Source: Mycolicibacterium holsaticum DSM 44478 = JCM 12374 (GTDB lineage: Bacteria; Actinomycetota; Actinomycetes; Mycobacteriales; Mycobacteriaceae). From it: a DNA stretch of 64,000 bases. Location: the NCBI RefSeq assembly GCF_019645835.1, contig NZ_CP080998.1:868001-932000 (forward strand), written 5' to 3'. Within the stretch, counting starts at the first letter, position 1, and every line of letters begins with the position of its first letter. The position numbers and the translations under genes are program-made. The notes below the pieces were generated by a model that was given only the letters and a program-made list of their open reading frames with translations, was not told where the DNA came from and ran no database searches. Positions 38,755 through 44,423 of this stretch are shown here, in pieces.

Positions 38755-40224
38755 CTACAGCCCGATGCGCCGGTACCGCTGCAGCCGTGTGCTCAGCCGC
38801 GCGTCGTCGGACACCGACCGCAGCGCGTGCAGTTCGTTGGCGATGGTGGCCGACAACCGCTGGGTGAACTCCACCGGCTCGTCGGCCGCATCGAAGCGTT
38901 CCGGCACGATCGCGTCGACGATACCCTGCCGCAACAGGTCAGCCGACCGAACACCTTGCGCGGCAGCAAGTTCCGGTGCGTGGTCGAGGTCGCGGAACAC
39001 GATCGCGCTGGCGCCCTCCGGCGGCAGCGGCGCCAACCAGCCGTGCAACGCGGCCAGCACCCGGTCGGCCGGCACCATCGCCAGCGCCGGCCCACCGCTG
39101 CCCTGGCCCAGCAGCACCGACACCGTCGGGGTGTCCAGCGTGACGAGTTCGGCGAGGCACCTTGCGATTTCGCCCGCCAGCCCGCCCTGTTCGGCTTCGA
39201 CGGTGAGCGCGGGCCCGGCCGTGTCGATGACCAGCACCAGCGGCAGCTTCAGGCCGGCCGCCAACGCCATGCCGCGGCGCGCTTCGCGCAACGCGGCCGG
39301 TCCGACCATGCCGCCGACCACCCGCTGCTGGCCGAGGACGACGGCGGGCTGGCCGCCGAACCGGGCCAACGCCAGCATCGTCGTCGCCGCCTCACCCTGG
39401 CCGGTCCCCGACAGCAGCACCCGGTCGGTCGTCCCGTGCCGCAGCAGGTAGCCGACGCCCGGGCGGTCGGGCCGCCGTGAGGCCTGCACCGACTCCCACG
39501 CCGGCACGTCCGGCAGCTCTTCGGGTTCGGGCGCAGGCGGCGGCGCCCCGGCCGGATCGGCGACCACCTTCAGCGTGCGGTCCAGCGTCGTGCGCAGCGC
39601 GTCAAGCGGAACCACCGCGTCGATGACGCCGTGGCGTTCGAGGTTTTCGGCGGTCTGGATGCCCGGCGGAAACGGTTCGCCGTAGAGGTGCTCGTAGACC
39701 CGCGGGCCGAGAAAGCCGATGAGCGCTTCGGGTTCGGCGGCGGTGACGTGGCCGAGCGAACCCCACGACGCGAACACACCGCCGGTCGTCGGGTTGCGAA
39801 GGTATACTAAGTACGGCAGGTGCGCTCTTTTGTGCAGTTCGACCGCGGCCGCGATCTTGACCATCTGCAGAAACGCGACCGTGCCCTCCTGCATCCGCGT
39901 GCCACCCGAACTCGGCGACGCCACCAAGGGCAGCCGTTCGGCCGTGGCCCGCTGCACCGCCAGGGTGATGCGCTCAGCGGCAGCCACTCCGATCGAGCCG
40001 GCCAGGAAGTCGAACTCGCACATCACCAACGCCACGCGGCGGCCGAAGATCGTGCCCTCGCCGGTCAGTACCGACTCGTCGAGGCCCGTCTTCGCCGCTG
40101 CGTCGGCCAGTTCGCGGCGATACGAGTCGGTGGTCGCGACCTGCAGTGGCTGGGTGTCCCAGCTGCGAAACGAGCCGTCATCGAGGACGGCGTCCCGCAG
40201 CTCAACGGCACCGATACGGCTCAC
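38755..40224 (-). CDS. accD3: acyl-CoA carboxylase carboxyltransferase subunit AccD3
   Basis: A 489-residue fused beta/alpha carboxyltransferase (AccD-type first half, AccA-like second half from about residue 260). First half: GEGTIFGRRVALVMCEFDFL, SPSSGGTRMQEG and PTTGGVFASWGSLGH (carboxybiotin/acyl-CoA oxyanion loops); second half: GGMVGPAALREARRGM and DTAGPALTVEAEQGG. It transfers carboxyl from biotin carrier to an acyl-CoA, for malonyl-CoA or longer products. Corresponds to Rv0904c. GTG 40224 start is divergent from the CIRCE-controlled glycosyltransferase. Confidence 0.92.
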   Translation of the reverse strand: MSRIGAVELRDAVLDDGSFRSWDTQPLQVATTDSYRRELADAAAKTGLDESVLTGEGTIFGRRVALVMCEFDFLAGSIGVAAAERITLAVQRATAERLPLVASPSSGGTRMQEGTVAFLQMVKIAAAVELHKRAHLPYLVYLRNPTTGGVFASWGSLGHVTAAEPEALIGFLGPRVYEHLYGEPFPPGIQTAENLERHGVIDAVVPLDALRTTLDRTLKVVADPAGAPPPAPEPEELPDVPAWESVQASRRPDRPGVGYLLRHGTTDRVLLSGTGQGEAATTMLALARFGGQPAVVLGQQRVVGGMVGPAALREARRGMALAAGLKLPLVLVIDTAGPALTVEAEQGGLAGEIARCLAELVTLDTPTVSVLLGQGSGGPALAMVPADRVLAALHGWLAPLPPEGASAIVFRDLDHAPELAAAQGVRSADLLRQGIVDAIVPERFDAADEPVEFTQRLSATIANELHALRSVSDDARLSTRLQRYRRIGL

Positions 40225-40296
40225 CCGAGAAGGCTAACGCGGGCCGCTTGCGGTCCGCGCCGGCCGATTAGCTAACTGCCCGACGACGAGCCATAA

Positions 40297-40323
40297 TTAG
40301 CACTCGTGAGGTGAGAGTGCTAA
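40297..40323. promoter_or_regulatory. CIRCE element (HrcA operator)
   Basis: TTAGCACTC (40297-40305) and GAGTGCTAA (40315-40323) with a 9-bp spacer match the CIRCE consensus TTAGCACTC-N9-GAGTGCTAA exactly. CIRCE is the binding site of the heat-shock repressor HrcA and usually sits before groES/groEL. Here it lies 38 bp before the glycosyltransferase TTG start and 73 bp before accD3's start on the other strand. A -10-like CATAAT (40292-40297) abuts its left arm. Confidence 0.92.
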
Positions 40324-40360
40324 CGCCGCGGCGAGGGCAGAGGAGACAAAGGAGGACCAG

Positions 40361-41539
40361 TTGAGCCCGACCGATTTCGTCAACGAGCGTGAAGTCGACG
40401 AACCGACCATCCAATCGGCCATCGAACCGATGCGCATCGTGCTCGTCGCACCGCCTTACTTCGACGTTCCGCCAAAGGGCTACGGAGGCACCGAGGCCGT
40501 CGTCGCCGATCTGGCCGACGCCCTGGTGAAACGTGGACACGACGTGACGCTGCTGGGCGCGGGCGAGCCGGGCACCGCAGCCAAGTTCGTTCCGGTGTGG
40601 GACCGCACGCTTCCCGACCGCCTCGGCCAGCCCTATCCGGAGATCATGCACGCGCTCAAGACCCGGCGTGCGATCGAGCGGATCGTCGAGAACGAAGGCG
40701 TCGACATCATCCACGAGCACACGTTCGCCGGACCGCTCAACGCCGCGCTGTACCGGTCGCTCGGATTGCCGACCGTGGTCACCATGCACGGTCCGATCGA
40801 CGAGGATCTGTATCCGTTCTATCGGGAGCTCGGCGACGACGTCGGCCTGATCGCGATCAGCGACCGCCAGCGTGAGCTGGCCCCCGACCTGAACTGGGTT
40901 GGCCGCGTCCACAATTCGCTGCGCATCGACGACTGGCCGTTCCGAACCGACAAGGGCGACTACGCGCTGTTCCTCGGCCGCTATGCCCCGTACAAGGGCG
41001 CCCATCTGGCGCTCGACGCCGCGCACGCCGCAGGGATCCCGCTGGTGCTGGCCGCCAAGTGCGACGAGCCGGCCGAGCAGGCCTACTTCGACGAGTACGT
41101 GCGCCCGCGGCTCACCGAGAACGACCACGTGTTCGGCCAGGCCGACGCCGACGACAAACGCAAGCTGTTGGCCGGCGCGCGGTGCGTGCTCTTCCCGATC
41201 CAATGGGAGGAACCGTTCGGGATGGTGATGATCGAGGCGATGGCCTGCGGCACCCCGGTGGTGGCGCTGCGTGGCGGCGCGGTGCCCGAGGTGATCGCCG
41301 ACGGCGTGACCGGGTTCGTCTGCGATCGGCCCGAGGAACTGCCGCAGGCGATCGCGAAGACCGAAACGCTGGACCCGGCCGTCTGCCGCCGACATGTGGC
41401 CGCGCACTTCGGATTCGGCCACTTCGGCTCGGGCTACGAACGCATCTACCGCGAGGTCGTCGGCGCCGCACGCGGCCGTCAGCCGATCGCGATGCGCCGG
41501 ATCGTCACCCCCACTACGTCGAGGCGAGGGCGCCTATGA
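40361..41539 (+). CDS. GT4-family glycosyltransferase under CIRCE control
   Basis: A 392-residue GT-B fold glycosyltransferase of family GT4. The N-terminal Rossmann half starts at MRIVLVAPPYFDVPPKGYGGTE and the C-terminal half contains the nucleotide-sugar motif PIQWEEPFGMVMIEAMACGTPVVALRGGAVPEV (E-x7-E). The donor and acceptor are unknown. I kept TTG 40361 because AGGAGG (40350-40355) sits 5 nt before it; ATG 40430 lacks such a site. It overlaps the next gene by 4 bp (ATGA), so it is translated with a debranching-type glucosidase, suggesting polysaccharide (glycogen-like or glucan) metabolism switched on by heat or folding stress. Confidence 0.9.
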   Translation: MSPTDFVNEREVDEPTIQSAIEPMRIVLVAPPYFDVPPKGYGGTEAVVADLADALVKRGHDVTLLGAGEPGTAAKFVPVWDRTLPDRLGQPYPEIMHALKTRRAIERIVENEGVDIIHEHTFAGPLNAALYRSLGLPTVVTMHGPIDEDLYPFYRELGDDVGLIAISDRQRELAPDLNWVGRVHNSLRIDDWPFRTDKGDYALFLGRYAPYKGAHLALDAAHAAGIPLVLAAKCDEPAEQAYFDEYVRPRLTENDHVFGQADADDKRKLLAGARCVLFPIQWEEPFGMVMIEAMACGTPVVALRGGAVPEVIADGVTGFVCDRPEELPQAIAKTETLDPAVCRRHVAAHFGFGHFGSGYERIYREVVGAARGRQPIAMRRIVTPTTSRRGRL

Positions 41540-43662
41540 GCACCCCGTCCGCACTCAACAGCGGCGAACCCGCCAGCCTCGGTTTCGGCGGCGACGCCGT
41601 GACGCTGGTGGAGGGCGCCACCTTCTGCCGCTCCGACCACCACGGCGACGTGCTCGAAGGCCGCTCACACGGCCTGTTCTTCCGCGACTCGCGGGTGCTG
41701 TCGCGGTGGGAGCTGCGCGTCGACGGCCGAGAACCCGAGCCGCTGTCCGTCGAAATGCCCGAAGCGTTCGCCGCCCATTTTGTTTCGCGGCGCGCACCGC
41801 TGGCCGGGCTGGCGGACAGCACGCTGCTGGTGGTGCGTGAGCGGCTGGTGGCCGACGGCATGCGCGAGACGATCACACTGCACAACCTCGGCACCGAACC
41901 CACCGTGGTGTCCCTGGAACTGCACGCCGACGCCGACTTCGCCGATCTGTTCGCGGTCAAGGAGGGCCGCCCCTCGCTCGGTGGTGCCGAAATGACCGTC
42001 GTCAGCGGCGAACTCGTCCTTCGCGACCGCACCGACCACGTCCGCGGACTGGTCGTGTCGGCCTCAGACGGCGCGACGGTGGTGCCGGGGGCGTTCAGCT
42101 GGCGCATCGTCGTGCCGCCGCGCCAACGGTGGCAGACCGAGATCGTCGCGCAGCCGACGTGGTCGAACCAGAGCGTCAAGAGCCGCTTTCGCACGGGCGA
42201 GCACCTCGAGTCCAGCGCGCCCGCACAGAAGTTGCAGGCGTGGCGCGGCACGGCCACCAAGGTCGACCCCGACCATCGGGTGCTCGCAGAAGTGTTGCGG
42301 CGCACCGAAAGCGACCTGGGCGCGCTGCTGATCCACGACGAAAGCGGTGAGAAGCGGCCGTTCGTCGCCGCGGGCGCACCGTGGTACATGACCCTGTTCG
42401 GGCGCGACAGCATTCTCACTGCGTGGATGTCGCTGCCGGTGGACTACGGGTTGTCGCTGGGCACCCTGCAGCAGCTGGCCGACACCCAGGGCCGCCAGGT
42501 CGACCCGGTCACCGAGGAACAGCCCGGCCGGATCATGCACGAGCTGCGCCGCGGACCTCTGTCCGCCGCGGTGCTCGGCGGCCCCGTCTACTACGGCGCC
42601 GTCGACGCGACGCCGCTGTTCGTGATGCTGCTCGCCGAAAGCTGGCGCTGGGGAGCCGACGAGAACCTGGTCCGCTCACTGCTGCCGGCCGCCGACGCGG
42701 CGCTGGATTGGGCCGCCCGATACGGCGACCGCGACGGTGACGGGTTCGTCGAGTACCGGCGCGCCACCGACCGCGGGCTGGTCAACCAGGGCTGGAAGGA
42801 CAGCTTCGACGGGATCAACTACGCGGTGGGCCCAATCGCCGAGCCGCCGATCGCGTTGTGCGAGGTCCAGGGCTACCAGTACGCCGCGCTGCTGGCCCGT
42901 GCCGAGCTGGCCGAGGCGTTCGGCGAGCCGGCGACCGCCAAGCGGCTGCGCGATCGGGCGCAGTCGCTTCGGGCCAAGTTCCTCGACGCGTTCTGGCTGC
43001 CCGACCGGGGCTGGTACGCCCTGGCGCTGGACGGCGACAAGAATCCGGTCGACTCGCTGACCAGCAACATCGGCCACTGCCTGTGGACGGGCATCGCCGC
43101 CGACGAGCACGTCGAGTCGATCGTGAAACAGCTGGCGACCGACGAGATGGACTCCGGCTTCGGCCTGCGCACGCTGGCCACGTCGATGGGCGCCTACAAC
43201 CCGATGAGCTACCACAACGGGTCGGTGTGGCCGCACGACACCGCGATCGTCGTCGCGGGCCTCATGCGCTACAAGCACGTGCCGGGCGCGGTGGAGCTGG
43301 CCGAACGGTTGGCGACCGGTCTGCTCGACGCGGCCGCCGCGTTCGGCGGGCGATTGCCCGAATTGTATTGTGGTTTCTCGCGTTCGGAGTTCCGCTCACC
43401 GGTGCCCTATCCGACGTCGTGTTCACCGCAGGCATGGGCCAGCGCGGCGCCGCTGCTGCTGGTGCGTGCGTTCCTCGGGCTGGACCCGCACGTGCCGGAC
43501 CGGCGCATCGTGGTCAGCCCGAAGCTCCCGGAATCCTGGGGCCGCGTCTCGCTGACCGACCTGACGCTGGGCGATGCGACCGTGCACATCGAGGCCGAGG
43601 GCGACGAGGTCAAGGTCAGCGGTGTTCCCGACGGCTGGGAAGTGGTCACCCCGCAGAGCTGA
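41536..43662 (+). CDS. amylo-alpha-1,6-glucosidase-like (glycogen debranching) protein
   Basis: A 708-residue protein with an N-terminal glycogen-debranching beta-sandwich domain (SLGFGGDAVTLVEGATFC, then HGLFFRDSRVLSRWEL) and a C-terminal (alpha/alpha)6 GH15/GH63-type barrel (from about residue 270). Acidic motifs such as WYMTLFGRDSILTAWM, GWKDSFDGINY and NPMSYHNGSVWPHDTA carry likely catalytic residues. The family removes alpha-1,6 branches from glucans. Its ATG overlaps the GT stop (ATGA), giving a two-gene CIRCE operon. I trimmed an upstream open frame that lies within the glycosyltransferase. Confidence 0.9.
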   Translation: MSTPSALNSGEPASLGFGGDAVTLVEGATFCRSDHHGDVLEGRSHGLFFRDSRVLSRWELRVDGREPEPLSVEMPEAFAAHFVSRRAPLAGLADSTLLVVRERLVADGMRETITLHNLGTEPTVVSLELHADADFADLFAVKEGRPSLGGAEMTVVSGELVLRDRTDHVRGLVVSASDGATVVPGAFSWRIVVPPRQRWQTEIVAQPTWSNQSVKSRFRTGEHLESSAPAQKLQAWRGTATKVDPDHRVLAEVLRRTESDLGALLIHDESGEKRPFVAAGAPWYMTLFGRDSILTAWMSLPVDYGLSLGTLQQLADTQGRQVDPVTEEQPGRIMHELRRGPLSAAVLGGPVYYGAVDATPLFVMLLAESWRWGADENLVRSLLPAADAALDWAARYGDRDGDGFVEYRRATDRGLVNQGWKDSFDGINYAVGPIAEPPIALCEVQGYQYAALLARAELAEAFGEPATAKRLRDRAQSLRAKFLDAFWLPDRGWYALALDGDKNPVDSLTSNIGHCLWTGIAADEHVESIVKQLATDEMDSGFGLRTLATSMGAYNPMSYHNGSVWPHDTAIVVAGLMRYKHVPGAVELAERLATGLLDAAAAFGGRLPELYCGFSRSEFRSPVPYPTSCSPQAWASAAPLLLVRAFLGLDPHVPDRRIVVSPKLPESWGRVSLTDLTLGDATVHIEAEGDEVKVSGVPDGWEVVTPQS

Positions 43663-43688
43663 TCGAGGCCGCTCGCTAGGGTGGCGAC

Positions 43689-44423
43689 ATGATTGGTGTA
43701 ACCCGCGACGGCCCGGTGATGACGCTGGAGATGCAGCGCGCCGAGCGCCGCAACGCGCTGAACGGCCAGCTCGTCGACAACCTGCGCGAGGCGATCGAGA
43801 AGGCCGCCACCGAGGACGTCCGCGCGATCGTGCTGACCGGGCAGGGCGCGGTGTTCAGCTCCGGTGCGGACCTGTCGGATCCCTCCGGGGTGGCCGACGA
43901 GCTGCCCGACAAGGCCAAGGCGCTCAACCTCGCCATCGACAAGGCCCCGGTGCCGGTCATCGGCGCAATCAACGGGCCCGCGATCGGCGCAGGCGTCATC
44001 CTCTCGATGATCTGCGATCTGCGGGTTGTGGCCCCCGAGGCGTACTTTCAGTTCCCGGTCGCGAAATACGGTTTGGCGCTGGACAACTGGAGCATCCGAC
44101 GATTGACTTCGCTGGTCGGAGCCGGTCGTGCGCGGGGGATGCTGCTGGCTGCCGAACGGCTGACCGCCGACGTCGCGCTGCAGACCGGCATGGCCAACCG
44201 CATTGGCACGCCGGCCGATGCGCAGGCTTGGGCCGCCGAGATCGCCGGCTATGCCCCCTTGGCGTTGCAGCACGCCAAGCGGGTACTCAACGACGATGGC
44301 GCATACGAGGACCCGCGACCCGAGCATCAGGACCTCTTCGATCGGGCCTGGGGCAGCCAGGACGTCATCGAGGCCCAGGTCGCGCGTATCGAGAAGCGCC
44401 CACCGAGGTTCCAGGGGGCCTGA
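43689..44423 (+). CDS. echA6: enoyl-CoA hydratase-like protein EchA6
   Basis: A 244-residue crotonase-fold protein. [12 protein letters not shown] and [21 protein letters not shown] form the oxyanion-hole regions. In M. tuberculosis EchA6 lacks catalytic residues and instead binds acyl-CoA and hands fatty acyl chains to FAS-II for mycolic acid synthesis; the close match and position (Rv0905) suggest the same role. ATG 43689. It abuts the next gene with no gap (TGA then GTG), so they are co-transcribed. Confidence 0.93.

Follow-up and report, generated by a model that had tools for sequence, protein, structure and literature searches.

Why does the operator of a chaperone repressor stand before two carbohydrate-active enzyme genes? 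The question is raised by a stretch of 64,000 nucleotides of the Mycolicibacterium holsaticum DSM 44478 = JCM 12374 genome (contig NZ_CP080998.1, positions 868,001 to 932,000; hereafter the window), in which a perfect CIRCE element (controlling inverted repeat of chaperone expression), the operator of the repressor HrcA, lies ahead of a gene for a GT4-family glycosyltransferase (hereafter GT4) and of a second gene for a glycoside hydrolase resembling amylo-alpha-1,6-glucosidases (hereafter GDE). The operator is ordinary and it is the target that is unusual. Our reading, to which we give a probability of about 0.82 from comparisons of sequences, is that CIRCE would act here as an operator and place the GT4–GDE operon under stress induction. 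The unit is made of the following features:

40297..40323, no strand: CIRCE, the HrcA operator, a 9-9-9 inverted repeat with 0 mismatches to the consensus
40292..40297, + strand: putative -10 box CATAAT of the GT4–GDE promoter, from the conserved CATAA before CIRCE
40349..40355, + strand: ribosome-binding site AAGGAGG, before GT4
40361..41539, + strand: GT4 glycosyltransferase, 392 amino acids, TTG start, TeGSS/Tll1591-like (open reading frame, domains, fold)
41536..43662, + strand: glycoside hydrolase GDE, GDE_N_bis and amylo-alpha-1,6-glucosidase-like, 708 amino acids (open reading frame, domains, fold)

The element, TTAGCACTC-N9-GAGTGCTAA at 40297-40323, is the sole match with up to three mismatches in the 64-kb window, where the chance expectation was 0.00 (largest count 0 in 100 dinucleotide-preserving shuffles). 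It lies 37 bp ahead of the TTG start codon at 40361 and abuts the conserved CATAA box, a position within the promoter/leader region of GT4, the transcription start site being predicted. Because CATAA is conserved directly before CIRCE, the CATAAT box would overlap the first T of the operator. GT4 and GDE meet at the sequence ATGA and thus overlap by 4 bp, the GDE start being the ATG at 41536, inside an open reading frame listed as 41059-43662. A preliminary description of this DNA had claimed a perfect CIRCE before a GT4 glycosyltransferase and an amylo-alpha-1,6-glucosidase gene with a 4-bp overlap, with which coordinates, shuffles and domains agree.

Retention of CIRCE upstream of orthologous operons had been set beforehand as one of the tests by which the proposal could be refuted. 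By searching 396 genomes of the genus with P0023, the GT4 of an M. smegmatis-named cluster (E-value 1e-150 or better), we identified GT4 in 43 of them, for a total of 50 copies, and up to 260 bases were read upstream of every copy. CIRCE precedes the best copy in all 43 genomes, with 0 mismatches in 19, 1 in 20, 2 in 3, and 3 in 1, and it is directly preceded by CATAA in 36 of these copies and by ATAA in 40. None of the seven second copies found in the same genomes has an upstream CIRCE (best 8–9 mismatches). GDE follows GT4 in all 30 same-genus copies for which the locus flank was long enough. A looser search (1e-60, 118 genomes) gave 21 GT4 copies in 19 genomes, 14 with CIRCE and seven without, the latter corresponding to two second copies and five distant relatives of 39–58% identity. 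The only named mycobacterial locus that lacks CIRCE, L054 of M. shimoidei (which contains L237), is also a second copy, and the genome that harbors it has a perfect CIRCE at a further GT4 copy (L173).

The conservation of the promoter is concentrated on the element and its immediate borders. Among 21 distinct mycobacterial promoters, selected for a CIRCE within two mismatches, 13 of the 18 arm positions reach 2.0 bits, the remaining arm positions 1.1–1.7, and the spacer 0.4–1.5; the conservation of the arms is partly built in by this selection, and just one of the 43 best copies would fail the filter. The ATAA before CIRCE is at 1.7–2.0 bits, and conservation is raised over GCCATAA immediately before the element and CGC immediately after it, with 33 of the 38 upstream positions 8–45 at 0.6 bits or less.

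The site also has the expected company. In the 5.62-Mb genome, we found six CIRCE-like sites with at most three mismatches, the perfect one being that of the window, and none when the pattern was read backwards as a control. The other five sites, with one or two mismatches each, precede hsp20 (at 945320-945346 of C1, 1 mismatch), a ruc-like zinc-ribbon gene, groES, and groEL2 (two tandem sites). The hsp20 gene was identified by the Pfam HSP20 domain, and a groEL lies behind groES; groES and groEL2 were assigned from the sequences themselves rather than with a family scan, and the ruc-like gene is so called for its resemblance to ruc/Rv0991c, given without a direct comparison with Rv0991c. HrcA is encoded by a single copy (PF01628, 196 bits), which, together with the five other sites, places the window site within an otherwise textbook HrcA regulon. 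HrcA was also found in 58 of 60 sampled genomes of the genus, the two misses being one genome that is 80% complete and another with 7% contamination.

The tabulation of genes downstream of mycobacterial CIRCE elements, which the preliminary description had proposed, was carried out on 118 same-genus genomes; of 19 perfect sites, five lie at GT4–GDE and 14 at hsp20, and no other gene type was found among them. Chaperonin sites escape such a perfect-site search because they carry two mismatches each in this genome. At eight of the 14 hsp20 loci, a lipoprotein-like gene stands divergently on the other side of the perfect CIRCE. With the HrcA-CIRCE regulon of M. tuberculosis, that of the present genome shares the 9-9-9 operator, the repressor family, and the promoter-region position of the element, as well as chaperonin targets and a ruc-like target. 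In M. tuberculosis, HrcA directly represses four genes, namely three chaperones of the Hsp60/Hsp10 family and ruc, and hsp20 is not included in the targets named in the available part of that report (PMC7448276), whereas two further targets, hsp20 and the carbohydrate-enzyme operon, are predicted here. All these comparisons make for a well-supported assignment of the CIRCE at GT4–GDE as a predicted operator. In addition, a CIRCE with two mismatches was observed downstream of a second GT4 copy (L043:1367-1393, genome G002), before a gene for a 243-amino acid AhpC/TSA-family peroxiredoxin, which is possibly another non-chaperone target of HrcA.

Outside the genus, CIRCE at GT4 is limited to certain lineages. 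Among 80 named GT4 loci, the highest-ranking of 196 candidates (CIRCE scored within two mismatches), 24 have the element: 10 of 11 in Mycobacterium, 5 of 5 in Amycolatopsis, 2 of 2 in Lentzea, the single ones of Prauserella and Kineococcus (1/1 each), 4 of 17 in Nocardia, 1 of 3 in Allorhizocola, and none of the 40 loci from other groups. GDE adjoins GT4 in 23 of these 24 loci, and the Kineococcus element is farther than the others from the aligned start region (228 bp). In 348 genomes sampled evenly at the level of the order, GT4 was found in 27 (E-value 1e-140 or better), of which 14 have CIRCE: 5 of 5 in the same genus, 8 of 9 in the Amycolatopsis-like family f14 (presumably Pseudonocardiaceae), 1 of 3 in f15, 0 of 1 in f12, and 0 of 9 in g2, presumably Nocardia. 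The ninth f14 locus (L248) has a degenerate CIRCE site. By eye, and unscored, the GT4 leaders of three Nocardia loci (L055, L057, L114) look like decayed CIRCE elements, at the position where the element is intact in L070 and L071. HrcA is present in all 44 genomes behind 45 of the named loci, which indicates that a missing CIRCE at GT4 does not mean a missing HrcA; 43 of these 44 genomes have a CIRCE with at most two mismatches somewhere (2–7 sites each), and the backward pattern gave one match each in two of them. The hypothesis that CIRCE accompanies every GT4–GDE operon was rejected, given the loci without it in Nocardia (13 of 17), Catellatospora (14), Streptomyces (4), and Nonomuraea (5).

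Some of the loci point to another wiring. In ten of them (L075, L077, L090-L092, L095, L100-L103), which we take to belong to the family Micromonosporaceae, the GT4–GDE pair is followed by a convergent gene, and the product of one representative contains sigma-70 regions 2, 3, and 4, a layout that we presume to be that of SigB/SigF-type factors. Ten of the 14 Catellatospora GT4 genes carry the motif GGGTAT, 96–103 bases ahead of the aligned reference position. GGGTA[TC] occurs upstream of GT4 in 10 of 22 loci (all ten from Catellatospora), compared with 8 of 180 control genes taken from these loci, in a count that uses crude gene starts from open reading frame calls, includes several loci from the same or close species, and concerns a motif noticed before counting. 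This is no more than suggestive of a general-stress sigma factor that would replace HrcA in the control of the pair in Micromonosporaceae-type loci.

What such an operon would make depends on its two enzymes. GT4 contains the domains Glycos_transf_1 (88.8 bits) and Glyco_transf_4 (72.4 bits), and its best solved relative by sequence is Tll1591/TeGSS from Thermosynechococcus (PDB 7fg9, 7fga, and 8x3q), at 220 bits, the next one being at 77 bits. Tll1591/TeGSS also ranks first by predicted fold (TMq 0.75; mean pLDDT 87.8), M. smegmatis GlgM being among the fold matches, and the two proteins share a GT-B fold and 42% identity over 334 aligned residues. With the glycogen-synthase model TIGR02149, GT4 scores 79.2 bits, far below the curated cut-off of 302.4, and we rejected its identification as a glycogen synthase on this basis. 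Tll1591/TeGSS is a glucosylsucrose synthase (UDP-glucose:sucrose alpha-1,2-glucosyltransferase), the product of which rises under salt and heat stress according to its description (PMC9909042). The UDP-contact/catalytic residues Y18, R179, K184, and E256 of TeGSS, together with W254, are kept in GT4 as Y41, R207, K212, E284, and W282 (in PMC9909042 this residue is written Glu256 in the text but Glu265 in one legend, and our alignment agrees with 256), and Y41, R207, K212, and E284 are invariant across 35 aligned sequences. Because the UDP-contact residues are kept, the donor is likely to be UDP-glucose-like.

The acceptor side is different. The TeGSS residues W10, E74, Y97, R117, T119, and N122 correspond to Y33, H97, L126, P145, D147, and L150 in GT4, so that six of the eight acceptor-rim/sucrose residues are changed and only Y70 and W254 are kept; these pairings are less sure because the alignment of the two proteins is gapped between residues 70 and 122. 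In contrast with the setting of Tll1591/TeGSS, nothing in this genome is clearly a sucrose-phosphate phosphatase (three matches, all partial and weak, best 25 bits; sucrose-phosphate synthase was not searched). Judging from these matches, sucrose seems an unlikely acceptor of GT4. The query P0023, which is 76% identical to the window GT4, resembles MSMEG_5641 of M. smegmatis, a Group 1 glycosyltransferase of 383 amino acids, and we infer from length, species, and domain positions that they are the same protein, so that M. smegmatis, a laboratory relative, seems to carry GT4; the two genomes nearest to P0023 (94–95% identical) have a CIRCE with one mismatch. MSMEG_5641 was reported as a yeast two-hybrid partner of the mycobacteriophage Giles protein gp65, in an article whose available part does not mention heat or HrcA (PMC5705681).

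The GDE protein contains the domains GDE_N_bis (161.7 bits, cut-off 22.1), MGH1-like_GH (69.2), and GDE_C (37.7, cut-off 21), and remains below the NCBIfam model of archaeal-type debranching enzymes, TIGR01561 (20.2 bits for a cut-off of 364). Its best match is the amylo-alpha-1,6-glucosidase of Thermococcus gammatolerans (PDB 7vma; 268 bits, fold TMq 0.68), from which it differs in that the identity over the structural alignment is only 29%. Other fold matches are GH94 phosphorylases and GH63 glucosidases, including ER glucosidase I and Escherichia coli YgjK, whose solved structure contains a 2-O-alpha-glucosyl sugar. Enzymes of the YgjK/ER glucosidase I type cut alpha-1,2 bonds. The structure of GDE was predicted with moderate confidence (mean pLDDT 76), the weak parts lying near residues 339–352 and 409–425. 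That GT4 and GDE may form a build-and-trim pair acting on one linkage is attractive but unproven. Neither protein contains a long hydrophobic or signal-like stretch, and both are therefore predicted to be probably cytosolic.

From these enzymes, we tentatively suggest that the operon makes a protective oligosaccharide and encodes its own recycling enzyme. A second reading keeps the control by HrcA and has the enzymes act on glycogen or on an envelope glycan; we consider it a serious possibility, if somewhat short of an even chance. The GDE_C and GDE_N_bis domains, the amylo-alpha-1,6-glucosidase as nearest structure, and the presence of GlgM among the GT4 fold matches are in its favor, whereas GT4 reaches only 79 of the 302 bits asked of a glycogen synthase, is nearest to an enzyme that glycosylates a soluble disaccharide, and, like GDE, is devoid of any hydrophobic or signal-like stretch. 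The preliminary description had linked the operon to glucan synthesis or remodelling, a wording that proved too specific for a GT4 closest to TeGSS and a GDE that scores below the NCBIfam debranching model.

For the protective-oligosaccharide reading, the sequence of events could be as follows. In unstressed cells, HrcA would occupy CIRCE, which overlaps the -10/start region, and block transcription. Upon accumulation of unfolded protein, HrcA would be inactivated and GT4–GDE induced alongside hsp20, the ruc-like gene, groES, and groEL2. In Bacillus, HrcA is inactivated through the loss of chaperonin support. Degradation of HrcA by the Pup-proteasome was proposed in M. tuberculosis (PMC7448276), and such turnover could be one route of derepression. 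Cytosolic GT4 would then transfer glucose from a UDP-sugar to an acceptor, the product most likely being an alpha-linked gluco-oligosaccharide that would stabilize proteins or membranes, and the GDE-like hydrolase would trim or recycle this product.

Several observations weigh against stress control of the operon by HrcA or against the proposed product. CIRCE is lacking at 56 of the 80 named GT4 loci, including 13 of the 17 from Nocardia, and at all 12 GT4 copies of the nine order-level genomes that we take for Nocardia. The gene itself is accessory, since only 43 of the 396 same-genus genomes have it at the cut-off used. A generic sigma-70 scan found no consensus -35/-10 pair at the GT4–GDE promoter, the -35 box thus being weak or absent. 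With six of eight acceptor-side residues changed, the product cannot be read across from TeGSS. Finally, a co-expressed synthase and hydrolase could be futile unless both are further regulated.

The element might also work in RNA. CIRCE would then be mainly a stem-loop at the 5' end of the messenger, governing its stability, rather than a DNA operator. In M. tuberculosis, CIRCE is reported to be part of the leader in some of the groES and groEL2 transcripts; work on the stabilization of mRNA by the CIRCE of Rhodobacter capsulatus is named in the reference list of the same article (PMC3207917). At the GT4–GDE promoter, however, the conserved CATAA box abuts CIRCE, so that transcription is predicted to begin within CIRCE, which would leave just a part of the repeat in the messenger. 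HrcA, moreover, is found in every one of the 44 genomes from which 45 of the named loci come and in 58 of the 60 same-genus genomes, and we regard the stem-loop as an improbable explanation of the element.

The two genes that border the unit in this genome are:

38755..40224, - strand: divergent neighbor accD3 (carboxyltransferase), outside the conserved unit (open reading frame, domains)
43689..44423, + strand: echA6-type enoyl-CoA hydratase (PRK07854, 380.6 bits, cut-off 237)

The names accD3 and echA6 are those we presume to apply. The accD3 start lies 72 bases to the left of CIRCE, and the element could regulate this divergent gene, or both genes, and stand before GT4 by coincidence. This proximity, and the presence of accD3 inside the 1.5-kb flanks of 15 of 30 same-genus cassettes, speak for such a role; the other 15 cassettes, without accD3 in these flanks, all keep CIRCE, however, and the -10 box is oriented toward GT4, not accD3. 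We also examined 30 accD3 loci, the top-ranking ones among 114 matches found across 107 of 118 genomes. CIRCE was found at all four with the cassette adjacent (0, 0, 1, and 2 mismatches) and at none of the 26 others, whose best sites have 6–8 mismatches (only ~160 bp upstream could be read in one, L144). Because CIRCE follows the cassette (4/4 vs. 0/26), control of accD3 as a conserved feature was rejected, and the influence on accD3 envisaged in the preliminary description was not borne out at that level. We consider regulation of accD3 as the role of the element very improbable; a local side-effect of CIRCE on accD3 may occur in this genome. In M. elephantis (L008, L044), all that was seen beside the cassette were short frames similar by eye to accD3, and the same G068 contig has a full-length accD3 (92% identical) at a distance of ~9 kb; a rearrangement is possible. 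On the other side of the unit, a gap of 26 bp (43663-43688) separates the GDE stop from the echA6-type gene, which is so short that an HrcA-controlled transcript could run on into it, and this gene may thus be a target of read-through here. Where the cassette is missing, echA6 adjoins accD3 in many genomes.

That CIRCE is a chance palindrome, or an unselected site inherited with a recent insertion, as the accessory nature of the cassette and its varying genomic context might suggest, has a negligible probability, given the absence of matches in shuffled sequences, the nearly invariant arms within diverging flanks, the occurrence of the element in several families, and its absence from second copies in the same genomes.

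HrcA has so far been seen as a repressor of chaperone genes that has few targets, and in a literature search limited to open-licence papers we found no account of a glycosyltransferase/glycosidase operon under CIRCE control. Operator control of GT4–GDE, if true, would provide a conserved metabolic, non-chaperone target, and would place small-molecule or glucan chemistry under the direct control of the protein-folding load. Such a target also offers a concrete handle on the uncharacterized and widespread GT4–GDE pair. In its widest form, our proposal, which is conceivable though on balance doubtful, is that in Actinobacteria the chaperonin sensor HrcA turns on a synthase and a hydrolase dedicated to an alpha-linked gluco-oligosaccharide not described before. 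This sugar would serve as a chemical chaperone and share the control of the protein chaperones, the Micromonosporaceae pair apparently being wired to a general-stress sigma factor instead. The distribution of these genes and operators suggests that, in many related soil bacteria, a protective sugar may be made and trimmed as part of the heat-shock response.

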